Shown piece after piece: positions 6,430 through 14,478 of a stretch of 64,000 nucleotides of DNA; within the stretch, counting starts at the first letter, position 1; each line of letters opens with the position of its first letter. A program made the position numbers and the translations under genes. This stretch comes from Streptacidiphilus anmyonensis (GTDB taxonomy: Bacteria; Actinomycetota; Actinomycetes; Streptomycetales; Streptomycetaceae). Where the stretch lies: the NCBI RefSeq assembly GCF_000787855.1, contig NZ_BBPQ01000001.1:168529-232528 (forward strand), given 5' to 3'. Under the pieces are notes generated by a model, which had not been told where the DNA came from, made no database searches, and saw nothing but the letters and a program-made list of their open reading frames with translations.

Positions 6430-7989
6430 ATGCCTTCTCCCCGTACGGTCAACGCCGCGCTGGCGACCGTCGCCGCGCTGGGCCTCGGCCTGACCGGCCT
6501 GGTGGCGCTCGGCGGCGGCGCGAGCGCCGACACCACCAACCTCGTGGTCAACCCCGGATTCGAGACCGGCTCCCTGGCCAACTGGAACTGCGACGCCGGC
6601 ACGGCCGCGGTCACCACGACCACGGTCCACTCCGGCTCCGACGCGCTCGCGGCCACCCCCACGGCCTCCGACGACGCCCAGTGCACGCAGACCATCAGCG
6701 TCCAGCCCAACTCCTCGTACACACTGAGTGCCTGGGTCAACGGCCCCTATGTCTACCTGGGCACCCAGGGCGACGGCACCACCGACGTCAGCACCTGGTC
6801 CAGCAGCAGCTCCTGGAACCAGCTCTCCACCAGCTTCAAGACCGGCGCCTCCACCACGAGCGTCACGATCTACCTGCACGGCTGGTACGGGCAGTCCACC
6901 TACTACGCGGACGACGTGGCGCTGAGCGGGGCGGGCGGCTCCAGCCCGAGCCCGACGCAGACTCCGACACAGAGCGCGTCGCCCACGCCGACGTCCACCC
7001 CGACGTCGAGCCCGACCCCCACGGCCTCCGCGACGCCGACCACCTCGCCCACCCCGACGGCCACCTCGACCGGCGGCACCGGCGGCGGCAGCAACCCGAA
7101 GCACTGGGTGACCGGCTACTGGCAGGACTTCGACAACGGCGCGACCGACCAGAAGATCAGCGACGTCAGCTCGCAGTACAACATCATCGCGGTCGCCTTC
7201 GCCAACGCCGACTCCGCCGGCGACGGCGGCATCACCTTCTCGCTCGACCCGACCCTGCAGAGCAAGCTCGGCGGCTACACCGACGCCCAGTTCAAGGCGG
7301 ACATCGCCGCCAAGCAGGCGCAGGGCAAGAAGGTGATCCTCTCGGTCGGCGGCCAGAACGGCACCATCTCGATCACCAGCGCCGCGCAGGCCACGGCCTT
7401 CGCGAACAGCGCGTACTCGATCATCCAGCAGTACGGCTTCAACGGCGTGGACATCGACCTGGAGAACGGGATCAACCCGACCTACATGTCCTCCGCGCTG
7501 CACCAGCTGGCGTCGAAGGTCGGCTCGGGCTTCATCCTCACCATGGCCCCGCAGACCATCGACGTGCTGAACTCCTCGTCCGACTACCTGGCCACCGCGC
7601 TCCAGGTGAAGGACATCCTCACGATCATGAACACCCAGTACTACAACTCGGGGTCCATGAACGGCTGTGACGGCGGCGTCTACAGCGAGGGCGGCGTCGA
7701 CTTCATCACCACGCTGGCCTGCACCGCGATCCAGGCGGGCCTCAGCCCGAACCAGGTCGGCATCGGCGTCCCCGCCTCCAGCAGCGCGGCCGGCAGCGGC
7801 TACGTCGCCCCGACCGTGGTCGAGAACGCCCTGAACTGCCTCGCCAAGGGGACGGGCTGCGGCACCTTCAAGCCCAGCACCACCTGGCCGACCATCGGCG
7901 GCGTGATGACCTGGTCGACCAACTGGGACGCCAGCAACGGCAACCAGTTCGCGAACAACGAGGGCGCCTTCACCAACGCCATGCCGTAA
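6430..7989 (+). CDS. Secreted chitinase: CBM plus GH18
   Basis: The protein is 519 residues. Layout: signal peptide (1 to about 35, cleavage near GGGASA-D), a jelly-roll carbohydrate-binding module (about 36-165, opening NLVVNPGFETGSLANW, as in CBM4/9/16 types), a Pro/Thr/Ser linker (about 170-215) and a GH18 domain (about 220-519). The GH18 active-site motif is FNGVDIDLENG near 337-347: the catalytic Glu and two preceding Asp are present, while the first Asp of the usual DGxDxDxE is Asn. Later motifs IMNTQYYNSGSMNGC and GGVMTWSTNWD fit the substrate cleft. It hydrolyses chitin outside the cell. Regulation by DasR is inferred from the operator upstream, and a hairpin follows the gene. Confidence 0.93.
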   Translation: MPSPRTVNAALATVAALGLGLTGLVALGGGASADTTNLVVNPGFETGSLANWNCDAGTAAVTTTTVHSGSDALAATPTASDDAQCTQTISVQPNSSYTLSAWVNGPYVYLGTQGDGTTDVSTWSSSSSWNQLSTSFKTGASTTSVTIYLHGWYGQSTYYADDVALSGAGGSSPSPTQTPTQSASPTPTSTPTSSPTPTASATPTTSPTPTATSTGGTGGGSNPKHWVTGYWQDFDNGATDQKISDVSSQYNIIAVAFANADSAGDGGITFSLDPTLQSKLGGYTDAQFKADIAAKQAQGKKVILSVGGQNGTISITSAAQATAFANSAYSIIQQYGFNGVDIDLENGINPTYMSSALHQLASKVGSGFILTMAPQTIDVLNSSSDYLATALQVKDILTIMNTQYYNSGSMNGCDGGVYSEGGVDFITTLACTAIQAGLSPNQVGIGVPASSSAAGSGYVAPTVVENALNCLAKGTGCGTFKPSTTWPTIGGVMTWSTNWDASNGNQFANNEGAFTNAMP

Positions 7990-8115: not shown

Positions 8116-9378
8116 ATGGACCAGGCCGCACTCGACGCGCTGGGCGAGACCGTCGTCGACTGGCGTTTCAAGGGCATGCCGATGGGCGTGGCCCCGACCG
8201 TGAACCAGATGCGCGACGCGAAGCTCGACCTCTTCGCGGACGGCTTCGTGACGCCCCTGCTCACGCTGGACTCGCGGGCCCTCGACCACAACCTGGAGCT
8301 GATGGCCTCCTGGGCACACCGCCACGGCCTGGCCCACGCCCCGCACGGCAAGACCCCGATGGCGCCCCAGCTGTTCCAGCGCCAGCTGGAGCTGGGCGCG
8401 TGGGGCATCACCGCCGCGACGCCGAGCCATGTGCAGGTGTACCGGCACTTCGGTGTGAACCGCATCTTCCTCGGCAACGAACTCGTCGACGCCGCCGCGC
8501 TGCGCTGGCTGAGCGCGGAGCTGGAACGCGATCCCGAGTTCCGCTTCGTCTGTTATGTCGACTCGGTCCACGGGGTCGAGCTGATGGACGCGGCGCTCAC
8601 GCACCGCGTCGACGTCGTGGTCGAACTCGGAGCGGTCGGTTCACGCACCGGGGTGCGAACCCGGGCCGAGGCGGACGAGGTCGCACGGGCCGTCCGCGCC
8701 TCGCGGTGGCTGCGGCTGGTCGGTGTCGCCGGGTACGAGGGCACGCTGCCGGGCGTCGACGAGACCCGCGCCGCCGTACGCGTCTGGATGCAGGAGCTGG
8801 TCGACACCGCCCATGCCTTCGACGCGCAGGGGTACCTCGCCGACGCGGACGAGATCGTCGTCAGCGCGGGCGGCAGCCAGCACTTCGACCTGGTCGCGGA
8901 CGCGCTGACGGAGACCGCGCTCCAGCTGTCCCGTCCGGTGCTGAGGCTGCTCCGCTCCGGCGCCTACGTCACCCACGACCACCTCCACTACGCGAAGATC
9001 ACCCCGCTGACCGAGGAGACCGAGCACTTCCTGCCGGCGTTGAAGCTCTGGGCTCAGGTCGTTTCCCGGCCCGAGCCGGGGCTGGCCCTGCTCAACGCGG
9101 GCAAGCGGGACGTCCCCTACGACCTCGGGCTGCCCGTGCCGATCCAGGTGCGCGACGCCCGGCAGGGCGGGCTGCACCCAGCCGAGGGCCTCAGCATCAC
9201 CGCCCTCTCCGACCAGCACGCCTTCATGGCGGTCAGCCCGGAGGCGGCCGTCGAGGTCGGCGACTGGGTCGCGCTCGGGCTGTCGCACCCCTGCACGGCC
9301 TTCGAGAAGTGGCAGTTGATCCCCGTCGTTCTTCCCGACGGCCGGACGGTCGTCGACTACATCCGCACCTTCTTCTGA
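8116..9378 (+). CDS. PLP-dependent D-amino-acid deaminase / D-threonine-aldolase family
   Basis: The protein is 420 residues with AAGGAG before the ATG. It has the alanine-racemase-like TIM barrel with the PLP-binding Lys in APHGKTPMAP (about residue 79), YVDSVHGVELM, and the C-terminal D-serine dehydratase-like domain with the metal ligands His and Cys (DQHAFM and LSHPCTAF). Family members act on D-serine, D-threonine and related hydroxy-D-amino acids, deaminating or retro-aldol-cleaving them. The next gene, 29 bp downstream on the same strand, is an N-acyl-D-amino-acid deacylase, so the pair probably releases and degrades D-amino acids. Confidence 0.88.
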   Translation: MDQAALDALGETVVDWRFKGMPMGVAPTVNQMRDAKLDLFADGFVTPLLTLDSRALDHNLELMASWAHRHGLAHAPHGKTPMAPQLFQRQLELGAWGITAATPSHVQVYRHFGVNRIFLGNELVDAAALRWLSAELERDPEFRFVCYVDSVHGVELMDAALTHRVDVVVELGAVGSRTGVRTRAEADEVARAVRASRWLRLVGVAGYEGTLPGVDETRAAVRVWMQELVDTAHAFDAQGYLADADEIVVSAGGSQHFDLVADALTETALQLSRPVLRLLRSGAYVTHDHLHYAKITPLTEETEHFLPALKLWAQVVSRPEPGLALLNAGKRDVPYDLGLPVPIQVRDARQGGLHPAEGLSITALSDQHAFMAVSPEAAVEVGDWVALGLSHPCTAFEKWQLIPVVLPDGRTVVDYIRTFF

Positions 9379-9407: not shown

Positions 9408-11042
9408 ATGCCTCCGCCCCGGACCGTTCTGCGCGGCGCTCTCGTCGTCGACGGCAGCGGCGGCGCGCCCTACCGCGCCGACGCCGTCCTCGACGACGGC
9501 CGTATCTGCGCGCTGCACCGCGAGGGCGATCCGGGGCCGCGGCCCGGCGGCGGCCGTGTCCTCGACGCCGACGGGTTGGCGCTCGCACCCGGCTTCGTCG
9601 ACATGCACGCGCACTCCGACCTGGCCCTGTTGGCCGACCCGGCGCACGAGGCGAAGGTCGCCCAGGGCGTCACCCTGGAGGTGCTCGGCCAGGACGGGCT
9701 CTCCTACGCGCCCGTCGACGACACCACCCTGGCCGGACTGCGCCGCCAGCTCGCCGGCTGGAACGGGGACCCCTCGGACGCGGACTTCGACTGGAACTGG
9801 CGCAGCGTCGGCGAGTACCTCGCCCGGCTCGACGCCCAGGGCATCGCCGTCAACGCCGCGTACCTCGTCCCCCAGGGGACGCTGCGCGCGCTGGTGCTCG
9901 GCTGGGAGGACCGCCCCGCCACACCCGCCGAGCTGGACCGGATGCGGGCGCTGCTCGCGCGAAGCCTCGACGAGGGCGCGGTCGGCATGTCCTCCGGGCT
10001 GACCTACACACCGGGCATGTACGCCGACGCCGCCGAACTCACCGCGCTGTGCCGGGTGGTGGCGGCCCACGGCGGTTACTGGTGCCCGCACCACCGTTCC
10101 TACGGCGCGGGCGCGCTGGAGGCCTACGCGGAGGTCGTCGCCGTCGCCGGGGCCTCCGGCTGCGCGCTGCACCTGGCCCACGCCACGATGAACTTCGAAG
10201 TCAACCGCGGCCGCGCCGGCGAACTGCTCGCCCTCGTCGACGCGGCCGTCGCCGACGGCGTGGACCTGACCCTGGACAGCTACCCCTACCTCCCGGGCTC
10301 GACCACCCTCGCCGCGCTGCTCCCCGGCTGGGCCGCGGCCGGCGGACCGGCGGAGACGCTGCGCCGCCTGGCCGACCCGGCGGCGCGGGCGCGCATCCGT
10401 GCCGACCTGGAGGTGCACGGCTCCGACGGCTGCCACGGCGTCGTCGCCGACTGGGACACGGTGCAGGTCAGCGGCGTCCGCGAGCCCGCACTGCGCTCCG
10501 CGGTGGGCCTGACGGTCCGACAGCTCGCGCGGCGGGAGGGCGTCGAACCGTTCGAGGCGTTCACCCGGCTGCTGCTCGACGACGGCCTCGGCACGACGAT
10601 CCTCCAGCACGTCGGCCACGAGGAGAACGTCCGCGCGATCATGCGCCACCCGGCGCACTGCGGCGGCAGCGACGGCCTGTTGACCGGCGACCGCCCCCAC
10701 CCGCGCGCCTACGGCACCTTCCCCCGCTATCTCGGCGCGTACGTGCGGGAGGAGGGAGTCCTCTCCCTCCCCGAGGCGGTCCGGCACCTGTCCGCCACCC
10801 CGGCCCGCCGCCTGGGCCTCGCCGACCGCGGCCAGGTCCGCGAGGGGTGGGTGGCGGACCTGGTCCTCTTCGATCCGGGAACCGTCGCCGAGCAGGCGAC
10901 GTTCGAGGATCCGAGAAGGACCCCACGAGGCATCCCCTACGTGTTCGTCGGCGGCGTCCCGGTCATGGACGACGGCCGTCGGACCGACGCGCTGCCCGGC
11001 CGGGCGATCACCCGACGTTCTGCGACGGGGAGGCCGGCGTGA
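9408..11042 (+). CDS. N-acyl-D-amino-acid deacylase (D-aminoacylase family)
   Basis: The protein is 544 residues from the ATG at 9408; the open frame runs much further upstream but inside the previous gene. It belongs to the amidohydrolase superfamily: APGFVDMHAHSDLALL carries the HxH metal motif near residue 65, followed by GVTLEVLGQDGLSYAP, GMSSGLTYTPGMYA, LHLAHATMNFEVN, LDSYPYLPGS and a late Asp in GGSDGLL. The tail PRRTPRGIPYVFVGG is typical of D-aminoacylases. It hydrolyses N-acyl-D-amino acids to the free D-amino acid, which the preceding enzyme may use. Its last 35 bp overlap the convergent gene on the other strand. Confidence 0.9.
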   Translation: MPPPRTVLRGALVVDGSGGAPYRADAVLDDGRICALHREGDPGPRPGGGRVLDADGLALAPGFVDMHAHSDLALLADPAHEAKVAQGVTLEVLGQDGLSYAPVDDTTLAGLRRQLAGWNGDPSDADFDWNWRSVGEYLARLDAQGIAVNAAYLVPQGTLRALVLGWEDRPATPAELDRMRALLARSLDEGAVGMSSGLTYTPGMYADAAELTALCRVVAAHGGYWCPHHRSYGAGALEAYAEVVAVAGASGCALHLAHATMNFEVNRGRAGELLALVDAAVADGVDLTLDSYPYLPGSTTLAALLPGWAAAGGPAETLRRLADPAARARIRADLEVHGSDGCHGVVADWDTVQVSGVREPALRSAVGLTVRQLARREGVEPFEAFTRLLLDDGLGTTILQHVGHEENVRAIMRHPAHCGGSDGLLTGDRPHPRAYGTFPRYLGAYVREEGVLSLPEAVRHLSATPARRLGLADRGQVREGWVADLVLFDPGTVAEQATFEDPRRTPRGIPYVFVGGVPVMDDGRRTDALPGRAITRRSATGRPA

Positions 11043-12471
11043 GCCGGAGCGTGTGCACCGTCCCCGGCGTCGGCCGGGTGACCGTCAGGGAGAGGATGTG
11101 GCGCGCCGGGTCCCAGGTGCTGGTGTACTCCGAGTCGAAGTCGATCTGCGGGCCGAGGGGGAAGTCCGACGGCGGGAGGTAGACCTCCGTCGGGCCGATC
11201 ACCGCCGCCTCGTCACGGAACTGGAGCGTGAAGACGAGGGTGCCCTTGTCGTAGTCGAACTCCACCGGAGTCCCGGCGATCGCGCGCGGGTACGCGGTCT
11301 GGAGCACGCCGGCGATGTCGGCGCCCTTTCCGGGCTTCTGCCAGGGGGACCACGGGCCCGGCGCGGCCGTGCAGCAGGCCGAGCCCGCCATCAGGTCGTC
11401 CAGCAGTTCCTGCACGTGGTCGACGTAGAGGTGCGCGCCGGGTGCCGTGAAGTCCGCTCCCCAACCGCCCACCAGGACCGGCGCGTCCAAGCGCTTGGCG
11501 GTTCGGGTGACCTGGATGGCCCAGGAGTTGAGGAGGCGGTCGGTCCAGAAGGCGTCGCTGCCGCTGTAGTTCCCGTCGGGGTCGACCGGCGCGGGGTAGA
11601 GCTGGGGGGCGTAGCCGATGCGGGCGACGCCGTGGCGCGGGTCCGGCAGGTAGGGCAGCGCGCTGGGCAGCCCGGTGTCCGCGGAGGCGGCCTCGGGTTC
11701 GACGAAGAGCCAGTGGTCCTGGTCGACCGCGCGCACCCGGGCGATGACGCGCTCGTAGAAGGCGGCCAGCGCCCCGGTCTCGAAGGCCGGGCCCTGAACG
11801 GATCCGCCCCACGGACGGTCCAGCAGGTCGAAGCCCACGACGGCGTCGGCGGGTGACAGCAGGCCCGCGCCGCGCGGGAGGTGCGCCGCGAGGTAGCTCG
11901 CGATGTGCGCCCAGGCCGCGGCGTAGCGGTCCTGGAGGTCGGGGGCGTCGTCGCGGGTGTGCCAGAACTCGTCGGCCGCGTGGATCCGGGCGGAGTTCAC
12001 AGCGGCCGGAACGGACGCGGCGCCTGGCGTCGGGCCGAAGGCGTCCTGGGTCATCGCGAGGACGACGTGGTCGCCGACCGCCGCGTACTGCCCGATGCGC
12101 CGGACCAGGGCGGCGAGGTAGACGTCGTCGTAGCGGCCAGGGGTGGGCTCGACACTGCTCCAGTGCAGCAGGATCCTCGCGCAGTCGTCACCGAGCAGCC
12201 CGTACTCCTCGGACGGCGACGACGACCAGGACGCCGAAGCCGACGCCGACGACGACGGCGATGCCGGGGCCGCCGAACGGGAGGCGCCCGCCACGACCGG
12301 GACGTCGTCCGTGTTGAGCCCGTAGAGGATCAGCGCCCGGCCCTGGGCGTCCGTCAGGAAGCGCGGCGTCGTCGCGCCGACCGCCGCGGGCGTGCCGAGA
12401 CGCAGCAGCAGTCCCGCCGCGCAGGCCAGGACCGCCAGCCCCGCGAACCACCGACGCAGATGTCCCCGCAT
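11008..12471 (-). CDS. Secreted GH5/endoglycoceramidase-like protein lacking catalytic residues
   Basis: The protein is 487 residues from the ATG at 12471. Layout: signal peptide or membrane anchor (about 1-32), then a barrel opening FLTDAQGRALILYGLN and containing ARILLHWSSVEPTPGRYD, as in the endoglycoceramidase branch of GH5. The expected acid/base motif (NEP in ...GYDLxNEPW...) reads GFDLLDRPWGG near residue 219. The His of the usual PHxY motif is Gln (YAPQLYPAP, about 289). The expected nucleophile motif (GEWG) reads VLVGGWGAD near 336. A C-terminal beta domain (about 400-487) is retained. I read this as a folded, secreted pseudoenzyme, possibly sugar- or glycolipid-binding. A Ser/Ala insertion follows residue 50. 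It converges on the D-aminoacylase gene with a 35-bp overlap. Confidence 0.75.
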   Translation of the reverse strand: MRGHLRRWFAGLAVLACAAGLLLRLGTPAAVGATTPRFLTDAQGRALILYGLNTDDVPVVAGASRSAAPASPSSSASASASWSSSPSEEYGLLGDDCARILLHWSSVEPTPGRYDDVYLAALVRRIGQYAAVGDHVVLAMTQDAFGPTPGAASVPAAVNSARIHAADEFWHTRDDAPDLQDRYAAAWAHIASYLAAHLPRGAGLLSPADAVVGFDLLDRPWGGSVQGPAFETGALAAFYERVIARVRAVDQDHWLFVEPEAASADTGLPSALPYLPDPRHGVARIGYAPQLYPAPVDPDGNYSGSDAFWTDRLLNSWAIQVTRTAKRLDAPVLVGGWGADFTAPGAHLYVDHVQELLDDLMAGSACCTAAPGPWSPWQKPGKGADIAGVLQTAYPRAIAGTPVEFDYDKGTLVFTLQFRDEAAVIGPTEVYLPPSDFPLGPQIDFDSEYTSTWDPARHILSLTVTRPTPGTVHTLRLTPASPSQNVG

Positions 12472-12598
12472 CCGCCACCCCCCTGCCGCCATGGTGATCG
12501 TAGATCCACAAACTGGGAGTGCGCAGGGAGTCGTCCTGGTTCTGTACCAACATCGACGAGCGCCGACCGGTGCGTGGGCGCGCGGGTACAGTCCGGCC

Positions 12599-13252
12599 AT
12601 GACCCCGCCCCTGGACCGCCCCCGTTCCGTGCTGCTCGCGGGCCTGACCGCGGCTCTGCTGCTGGTGCTGGCCCTCGGCACGGGCACGGTGTGGCTGCGG
12701 CTGACGGACGCCTTCCCCACGGTGCTGCACGCGGCGGCGCTCGAAGTGCCGCCGTTCCTGCCGGGGCTGCGGCCGGATCCGCGTGGGGACAGCACCTGGG
12801 CGTTCACCCTCTCGGAGGACTTCGCGGCGCTGCTGCTGGTCGGCGTCGTCGCCCTGCGGCTGCGCCGCCACGTGCTGCGCCACCCGTACGCGGGTGTGCT
12901 GCGGCGCCTGGGGGCGGGCTGGTCGGCGGTGGCGCTGGGCGGGGCGGTCGCCGGGGTGTTCCGCGGTCTTGCGCTGGCGCGGATGACGGGCGCGGCACCG
13001 CTCGGCTGGACGGTGCACCCGCTGGCCGGAGCCGTGTCGGGCGCGGTGTGGGGGGTGCTGCTGGGTTGGACGGTCGGCCTGGCCGTCGCCCTGGTCGGCA
13101 ACCGCCGCCTGCGCCGCCTGCCCCGGCTGCGTGAACTGCGACGCGTGGGCGCCACCGTCGTCCCACCGGCGCGCCTCGCGCGGGTGGGACGCCTCCCGCG
13201 CCGCCTCCAGCATGGTGAAAATCACCGCGCAGCGGGTATGGCGAGGCACTAG
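12599..13252 (+). CDS. Conserved actinobacterial membrane protein, function unknown
   Basis: The protein is 217 residues with about four hydrophobic helices: near 12-32, 70-86, 100-118 and 138-162. An Arg-rich cytosolic tail follows. I recognise no family. The ATG at 12599 has no Shine-Dalgarno sequence but lies 6 nt after TACAGT (12587-12592), the spacing expected for a leaderless transcript. The region between it and the divergent GH5-like gene is only 127 bp. Confidence 0.65.
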   Translation: MTPPLDRPRSVLLAGLTAALLLVLALGTGTVWLRLTDAFPTVLHAAALEVPPFLPGLRPDPRGDSTWAFTLSEDFAALLLVGVVALRLRRHVLRHPYAGVLRRLGAGWSAVALGGAVAGVFRGLALARMTGAAPLGWTVHPLAGAVSGAVWGVLLGWTVGLAVALVGNRRLRRLPRLRELRRVGATVVPPARLARVGRLPRRLQHGENHRAAGMARH

Positions 13253-13263
13253 GCTGCATCGGT

Positions 13264-14478
13264 ATGCAGGTGATCCAGTCCAGCAAGCTCGCCAACGTCT
13301 GCTACGACATCCGCGGACCGATCCTCGACGAGGCCATGCGGCTTGAGGACGAGGGCCACCGCATCCTGAAGCTGAACACCGGCAACCCGGCGCCGTTCGG
13401 CTTCGAGGCGCCGGCGGAGATCCTTCAGGACATCGTCCGCAACCTCGCCGGGGCCCACGGCTACGGCGACTCCAAGGGCCTGCTCTCCGCGCGCCGCGCC
13501 GTGGTGATGCACTACGAGGAGCGCGGCCTGCACGGCCTGAGCGTCGAGGACGTCTACATCGGCAACGGCGTCTCCGAGTTGATCCAGATGGCGATGCAGG
13601 CGCTGCTGGACGACGGTGACGAGATCCTCGTCCCCTCCCCCGACTACCCGCTGTGGACGGCCTCGATCAGCCTGTCCGGCGGGACGGCGGTGCACTACCG
13701 CTGTGACGAGCAGTCCGACTGGTTCCCCGACCTCGCGGACATCGAGTCGAAGATCACCGACCGCACCCGCGGCATCGTGATCATCAACCCGAACAACCCG
13801 ACCGGCGCGGTCTACCCGGTCGAGCTGCTGGAGGGTCTGGTCGCGATCGCCCGCCGGCACAACCTGATCGTCTACTCGGACGAGATCTACGACAAGATCC
13901 TCTACGACGACGCCGAGCACACCTCCACCGCCGTGCTCGCGCCGGACCTGCTCTGCCTCACCTTCAACGGCATGTCCAAGGCCTACCGGGTGGCCGGCTT
14001 CCGCAGCGGCTGGATGACGATCTCCGGCCCGAAGGAGGAGGCCCGCAGCTACATCGAGGGCCTGACCACGCTGGCCACCATGCGTCTGTGCGCCAACATG
14101 CCCTCGCAGCACGCGATCGCCGCCGCGCTCGGCGGGCGCCAGTCGATCAAGGACCTGATCCTCCCCGGCGGTCGGCTGCGCGAGCAGCGCGACATCGCCT
14201 GGAAGATGCTCAACGACATCCCCGGCGTCTCCTGCGTGAAGCCCAAGGGCGCGCTGTACGCCTTCCCGCGGCTGGACCCGAAGGTCTACAAGATCAAGGA
14301 CGACGCCCAGATGGTGCTGGACCTGCTCAAGCAGCAGCACATCTACGTCGTCCAGGGCACCGGGTTCAACTGGCCCGACCCGGACCACTTCCGCCTGGTC
14401 ACGCTGCCCCGTGCGGAGGATCTGAGCGAGGCGATCGAGAAGATCGGCGTCTTCCTGTCGACCTACGCTCAGCCGTAG
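13264..14478 (+). CDS. PLP-dependent aminotransferase, AlaA-like
   Basis: The protein is 404 residues of the class I/II aminotransferase fold: LKLNTGNPAPFGF, GYGDSKGLLSARRAV, YIGNGVSELIQMAMQALLDDGD, IINPNNPTGAVY, YSDEIYDKILYD, and the PLP-lysine motif FNGMSKAYRVAGFRSGWM. The length and motifs match alanine aminotransferases of the AlaA type, which make alanine from pyruvate and glutamate. TAGGCT at 13250-13255 lies 8 nt before the ATG with no Shine-Dalgarno sequence, so the message is probably leaderless. A palindrome GGTGAAAATCACC sits at 13214-13226, upstream of the -10, and could be an operator. Confidence 0.9.
   Translation: MQVIQSSKLANVCYDIRGPILDEAMRLEDEGHRILKLNTGNPAPFGFEAPAEILQDIVRNLAGAHGYGDSKGLLSARRAVVMHYEERGLHGLSVEDVYIGNGVSELIQMAMQALLDDGDEILVPSPDYPLWTASISLSGGTAVHYRCDEQSDWFPDLADIESKITDRTRGIVIINPNNPTGAVYPVELLEGLVAIARRHNLIVYSDEIYDKILYDDAEHTSTAVLAPDLLCLTFNGMSKAYRVAGFRSGWMTISGPKEEARSYIEGLTTLATMRLCANMPSQHAIAAALGGRQSIKDLILPGGRLREQRDIAWKMLNDIPGVSCVKPKGALYAFPRLDPKVYKIKDDAQMVLDLLKQQHIYVVQGTGFNWPDPDHFRLVTLPRAEDLSEAIEKIGVFLSTYAQP

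Follow-up and report, generated by a model that had tools for sequence, protein, structure and literature searches.

A probable pseudo-endoglycoceramidase retained at a conserved locus in Streptacidiphilus

We have analyzed a 64,000-nucleotide stretch from the genome of the soil actinobacterium Streptacidiphilus anmyonensis (contig NZ_BBPQ01000001.1, forward-strand positions 168,529 to 232,528), called the window below. One gene on its minus strand encodes a protein, P0001, related to the endoglycoceramidases (EGCases) of glycoside hydrolase family GH5. Sequence alignment shows that both catalytic glutamates and most of the glycone-contacting residues have gone from P0001. The protein is probably orthologous, by gene position, to a secreted EGCase of the GH5_28 type and has been turned in place into a non-catalytic protein whose role would lie in the C-terminal domain. 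The export segment, the upstream sequence blocks, the chromosomal position, the reading frame and the predicted fold have all been kept. With its catalytic residues missing from a predicted GH5 fold, and encoded by an intact, conserved gene, P0001 has the sequence character of a non-catalytic GH5 protein. The gene and the two segments of its product that flank the barrel are:

11008 to 12471, minus strand: pseudo-endoglycoceramidase coding sequence (P0001), 487 amino acids, with intact orthologous open reading frames in 12 further cleanly readable species
12373 to 12471, minus strand: N-terminal export segment predicted from hydropathy, residues 1–33, with an RR motif and ~24 hydrophobic residues
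11044 to 11295, minus strand: C-terminal beta-sandwich domain (PF18564), residues 393–476, unusually conserved within Streptacidiphilus

The reading frame runs from an ATG at 12471 to a TGA at 11008–11010, giving 487 codons with no internal stop. In Pfam the GH5 C-terminal domain passes its threshold (E = 2.5e-12), while Cellulase falls slightly short. The nearest solved protein by phmmer is EGCase II of Rhodococcus (2osx, E = 1.8e-72), to which the motifs align without ambiguity. An AlphaFold2 model built on an alignment of 22 orthologues has a mean predicted local distance difference test score (pLDDT) of 80.6 and a predicted template modeling score (pTM) of 0.81. Confidence is low at residues 23–35, in a Ser/Ala-rich insert (59–82), at 146–154 where a loop has been deleted, at 263–265 and in the last three residues. 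The top Protein Data Bank (PDB) matches of the model are all EGCase II (Foldseek, 2oyk, E = 3.2e-44, TM 0.85 by target), and superposition on that enzyme by VIA gives Z = 44.2 with a root-mean-square deviation of 2.1 Å over 401 residues. EGCase I and endogalactoceramidase come next. Pfam, phmmer and the predicted structure agree on a TIM barrel followed by the C-terminal beta-sandwich, and the modeled fold is of the EGCase II type. P0001 shares the whole fold and both domains of the Rhodococcus enzyme (GH5_28; PDB 2OSW, 2OSX and 2OSY), with 37–38% identity over ~400 aligned residues. An earlier reading of the window, made from the sequence only, had described an uninterrupted 487-residue secreted protein that keeps fold-level motifs of the endoglycoceramidase branch of GH5, and this is borne out. 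P0001 scores 51.3 bits against the NCBIfam endoglycoceramidase I equivalog NF051847, below the curated cut-off of 700 bits, but so does an orthologue with an intact active site (L012, 137.5 bits), so that this test does not tell dead from intact proteins of the EGCase II type.

The N-terminal segment is predicted to be a signal peptide or an uncleaved anchor. It contains a Tat-like motif (RRWF/RRWL), and the model has a helix at residues 2–23 within it. Cys17 is invariant. Lipoprotein anchoring through this residue was considered and rejected, since the strict PROSITE lipobox is not matched: Cys17 lies inside the hydrophobic segment, R7 is too close and hydrophobic residues follow.

The gene is present in 14 of 14 Streptacidiphilus genomes. 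Eleven carry versions lacking the catalytic residues (dead copies) and three have an intact active site. The dead copies form two clades, typified by DRP/GGWG and SQP/GSW. Group A comprises the window genome (G000), G003 and G005–G009, with motifs DRP and G[GSA]W[GT]. Group B comprises G001, G011, G012 and G013, the last read piecewise, with motifs [SG]QP and SW[ST]. The intact copies form group C (G002, G004 and G010; loci L010–L012), with HQD, NEP, PHLY and GEWG. EGCase II residue numbers are used for the active site, obtained by adding 9 to the chain position, as the phmmer and VIA coordinates indicate; E233 and E351 are the established acid/base and nucleophile, respectively, of this enzyme. 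The altered positions are:

11812 to 11820, minus strand: D218-R219-P220, in place of N232-E233-P (acid/base); DRP is invariant in seven species
11464 to 11466, minus strand: G336, in place of the nucleophile E351; Gly/Ala in group A, Ser in group B, Glu in 12 of 12 intact sequences
11602 to 11604, minus strand: Q290, in place of the PHLY His (PQLY); Gln throughout groups A and B
12049 to 12051, minus strand: T141, in place of His135 (MHQD to MTQD); T/A/E/Q in group A, E/Q in group B
11371 to 11376, minus strand: vicinal Cys366-Cys367, in place of Tyr381-Trp382, in five of seven group A species (the window and L004–L007)
12000 to 12012, minus strand: deletion site, by alignment, of the WAT..GGL..WEM active-site loop that carries Trp178, after about residue 155; the loop is missing in all seven group A species and kept in group B

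P0001 differs from the Rhodococcus enzyme by replacements at both catalytic Glu and at Asn232, His135 and the PHLY His, and it has lost the active-site loops and Trp382. The acid/base Glu of NEP at the end of strand 4 is absent, with R219 in its place and Asp at the preceding Asn. The nucleophile Glu at the end of strand 7 is also absent, GEFG of EGCase II reading GGWG. The Lys of SAK and the ADGMP loop are further losses seen in the alignment of orthologues. Two deposited inactive mutants of EGCase II fall on the same columns: the GM3 complex 2osx has GSFG at the nucleophile Glu, and the lactosyl-enzyme intermediate 2osy has NAPF at the NEP Glu. These columns place the three replacements named by the sequence-only reading (NEP to DRP, the His of PHxY to Gln, and GEWG to GGWG) just where it had put them. 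Three was too low a count, however, as T141, Asn232, the Lys of SAK, Tyr-Trp381–382 and two loops have changed as well. An alignment with intact Glu residues at the ends of strands 4 and 7 would have refuted that reading, and there is no Glu at either position. Sequencing error, frameshift or assembly artefact as the source of the motif changes was rejected, because six further species show DRP and G[GSA]W[GT] too. The paired cysteines could possibly form a vicinal disulfide in a secreted protein.

Some of the changes fall at the same positions in both clades. In a MAFFT alignment of the orthologues 117 columns are invariant among 12 intact-type sequences; 19 of these are altered throughout group A, 14 throughout group B and six in both. 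An overlap of at least six would arise by chance with p ~ 0.011. The six are Lys66, His135, Asn232, Glu233, the PHLY His and Glu351, which make up the catalytic center and the immediate sugar contacts of EGCase II. The Lys66 column falls in a low-complexity insert in group A, where the alignment is less sure.

Beyond the genus, four Streptomyces (L040–L042 and L069) carry an intact orthologue in the same gene neighborhood. The syntenic order is a D-serine-dehydratase-like gene, an amidohydrolase, the endoglycoceramidase-type gene (reversed), a small membrane protein and an aminotransferase. In the window the surrounding elements are:

8116 to 9378, plus strand: D-serine-dehydratase-like protein (PF14031), syntenic marker
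9408 to 11042, plus strand: amidohydrolase (Amidohydro_3), convergent neighbor and syntenic marker
12495 to 12506, minus strand: upstream block CGATCTA..ATC, common to intact and dead groups and containing TAnnAT
12533 to 12551, minus strand: upstream block GGTAC.GAATC.GGAC, common to groups A, B and C, with a putative function
12599 to 13252, plus strand: divergent membrane protein of 217 amino acids with ~4 transmembrane (TM) segments, adjoining in each of the 13 Streptacidiphilus loci that could be read and in the four Streptomyces
13264 to 14478, plus strand: class I/II aminotransferase, syntenic marker

The intact genes of Streptomyces and group C have the same position and neighbors as the P0001 gene and are its true orthologues, but differ from it in keeping HQD, NEP, PHLY and GEWG/GEYG. 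As four Streptomyces hold the intact enzyme in the same neighborhood, we strongly infer that the ancestral gene encoded a catalytic enzyme. The orthologue is scarce in other Streptomycetaceae (~1% of the sample; 3 of ~381 in one draw and 4 of ~388 in a second, overlapping draw). On this sampling the EGCase appears to be ancestral and mostly lost elsewhere in the family, yet it is retained by every Streptacidiphilus although most of the copies should not hydrolyze.

Substitution patterns show the dead copies to be under purifying selection. The ratio of nonsynonymous to synonymous rates (dN/dS) by NG86 is 0.28–0.40 in close group A pairs, 0.30–0.35 in group C and 0.24–0.31 in Streptomyces; by YN00, where computable, it is 0.05–0.10 in close group A pairs. 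Differences between the window copy and that of G007 are distributed 40/40/92 over the codon positions (p = 1.5e-7 against equal rates), and the G+C content at third codon positions is 0.93–0.95 in dead copies. The Arg219 codon varies between CGT and CGC across species with Arg kept. All ten readable dead orthologues are full-length. In a simulation of neutral drift along a single lineage the probability of no stop codon was 0.04 at 12% divergence and <0.01 at 20%, and an open frame is therefore unlikely by drift at the divergence observed. The gene might still be decaying slowly and have escaped a stop so far, as the group A barrel evolves about three times faster than the neighboring genes and active-site loops have been lost. 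We consider this highly improbable given the ten full-length copies, the simulation, the purifying dN/dS and the invariance of DRP in seven species. The frameshifts in G013 were rejected as evidence of pseudogenization: that assembly is error-rich, its neighboring genes are frameshifted too, and the readable residues are of the group B type. The earlier preference for a retained pseudoenzyme over a decaying gene is upheld by the ten full-length dead orthologues, the codon-position bias, dN/dS values like those of the intact copies and the retention in every genome. Orthologues that mostly kept NEP and GEWG would have refuted it; within the genus the outcome is in its favor, dead copies outnumbering intact ones by 11 to 3, and the orthologues outside the genus are intact.

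Catalysis was probably lost independently in two lineages, group A (which includes the window) and group B, because trees of other genes reject a union of the two. Concatenated neighbor genes place B with C (support 98/97) and reject A+B in the approximately unbiased test (p-AU = 0.0069), and rpoB does the same (B+C 100/99; A+B, p-AU = 0.0034). The most economical history is one of two separate losses.

A comparison of the two domains suggests which part of the protein is under constraint. The ratio of the C-terminal domain rate to the barrel rate is 3.64 (2.39–5.78) in Streptomyces and 2.51 (1.83–3.36) in outgroup enzymes. In Streptacidiphilus it is 0.71 for group A, 0.93 for group B and 0.83 (0.37–1.48) for the intact group C, and the confidence ranges of all three lie under those of Streptomyces and the outgroups. 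Scaled to neighbor genes, the barrel rates are 1.02 (Streptomyces), 1.59 (C), 1.91 (B) and 2.92 (A), and those of the C-terminal domain are 3.72, 1.33, 1.78 and 2.10 in the same order. The C-terminal domain is already constrained in group C, which is still intact, and from this we infer that its non-catalytic role arose first and the catalytic loss came after. In the mechanism that we propose, the ancestral Streptacidiphilus protein would have gained a second, non-enzymatic role before the losses, mainly through the C-terminal beta-sandwich domain and probably by attaching to an extracellular partner or surface. The hydrolase would thereby have become dispensable, and the barrel consequently free to change. 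Our guesses for the partner are a glycopolymer of the cell surface or the four-TM membrane protein encoded divergently from P0001. The full sequence of events, in which the EGCase of the Streptacidiphilus ancestor gained the role of the C-terminal domain and catalysis was then erased twice at one syntenic locus while intact sisters survived, is a tentative reconstruction that we judge could well be right but hold back from calling probable.

A number of observations weigh against this interpretation. With all columns included, the gene's own tree groups A with B (91/89). Removal of the altered active-site columns and their neighbors turns it to B+C, in favor of two losses, but weakly (77/75; A+B is not rejected, p-AU = 0.16), so that this gene tree alone does not reject a single loss. 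Group A shows some relaxation relative to the neighbor genes, the adjacent amidohydrolase having a lower dN/dS of 0.13–0.17 in that group. The neighbor-scaled interval for the C-terminal domain of group A overlaps that of Streptomyces, and the comparison for this domain rests on 84 columns in few species. Alternatively, catalysis could have been lost once and the intact gene of group C restored by recombination from another lineage. The all-column tree and the His-to-Gln change at PHLY shared by A and B speak for such a history, but we find it distinctly unlikely: synteny in group C is unbroken, the A+B grouping vanishes with the altered active-site columns, and A and B have different substitutes at N232, E233 and E351.

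P0001 might instead be a lectin or sensor for glycans or glycolipids that still uses the old active-site channel. Its fold is retained in the prediction, Arg219 and Asp218 are kept in seven species with synonymous changes in the Arg codon, so that the site would still be selected, and inactive GH5 modules acting as glycan sensors are known, for example the cellulose sensor of Clostridium thermocellum (PMC3526467). Against this, Lys66, His135, Asn232, the Trp178 loop, the PHLY His and Trp382 have all been lost, which dismantles the original glycone subsite, and the barrel is the fastest-changing part of the protein. Because the residues that hold the sugar are those altered, use of the old pocket appears less likely than binding by the C-terminal domain, and on the present sequences we regard it as unlikely. 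Glycan or glycolipid binding in the simple form suggested by the earlier reading is accordingly left without support, the sugar-gripping residues being lost and the evolutionary signal pointing to the C-terminal domain. The replacement residues could conceivably form a different active center, with D218, R219 and Q290 joining the retained D143 in a new chemistry. Group A does not vary at any of these four positions, and three of them were newly fixed. Yet position 141 varies freely (T/A/E/Q), position 336 is Gly or Ala, the substrate loops have gone, and the two dead groups ended up with different residues; a new enzyme is extremely improbable.

A second EGCase-like gene of the window genome (G000:C95:42551-43864; L002, L111) keeps both NEP and GEWG, and P0001 might act as a regulator or decoy for its product. 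This intact paralogue is present in seven of seven group A genomes, three of four in group B and zero of three in group C, where the syntenic enzyme is intact. However, in G001, a single-contig genome that keeps a dead copy, the searches made detected no further EGCase-like paralogue, and the correlation may merely reflect a paralogue that makes hydrolysis by the P0001 locus redundant. We consider regulation or decoy action very unlikely. The distribution fits redundancy permitting the catalytic loss, a count made weak by the relatedness of the species.

Returning to P0001 as a non-catalytic EGCase with a role in its C-terminal domain, proteins of the general kind are already known. EGCase II (2OSX) was assigned to GH5_28 by Aspeborg and colleagues (PMC3526467), who list non-catalytic proteins for GH5_30, for side branches of GH5_1 and GH5_8 (Xanthomonas) and for one member of GH5_48; the cellulose sensor of C. 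thermocellum sits on an anti-sigma factor. Like P0001, GH5_30, the Xanthomonas GH5_1/GH5_8-like proteins and the sensor keep GH5 modules without catalytic residues. They differ in belonging to other subfamilies and architectures. The endoglycoceramidase branch is not represented among them, and that paper describes no case of parallel loss in which the locus still holds an intact orthologue in other species (PMC3526467). In an open-access library we found no endoglycoceramidase pseudoenzyme, and none of the papers listed pairs Streptacidiphilus with endoglycoceramidase. P0001 is a new and unusually well-staged case, from the endoglycoceramidase branch. Usually a pseudoenzyme comes to notice as a separate subfamily of long standing or as the product of a duplication. 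In the present case one gene at one position still has its active site in some species and has lost it in others, apparently on two occasions, which makes the order of events directly testable; if the interpretation is right, the species form a natural series that shows an enzyme before and after it turned into a non-enzyme. For most of Streptacidiphilus, an automated label of endoglycosylceramidase on this gene would be wrong.

Some features of the neighborhood may be added. The TAnnAT within the CGATCTA..ATC block could be a −10 element, with a putative promoter role. The 3′ ends of the P0001 and amidohydrolase genes overlap tail to tail by 35 nucleotides (11008–11042), and the overlap is missing in some relatives. 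The amidohydrolase of G006 (L073, about 6885–6939) appears frameshifted. The membrane protein at 12599–13252 has no Pfam or NCBIfam match. A third EGCase-like paralogue (L003, L026–L031) has a TM domain fused to a GH5 domain, part of which faintly resembles this membrane protein; as a Rosetta-stone lead the match to the TM domain is weak by hmmsearch and has an hhalign probability of 71%, with biased composition. A secreted protein with CBM_4_9 and GH18 domains is encoded at 6430–7989 on the plus strand, and its DGVDIDLE-type catalytic motif is intact.

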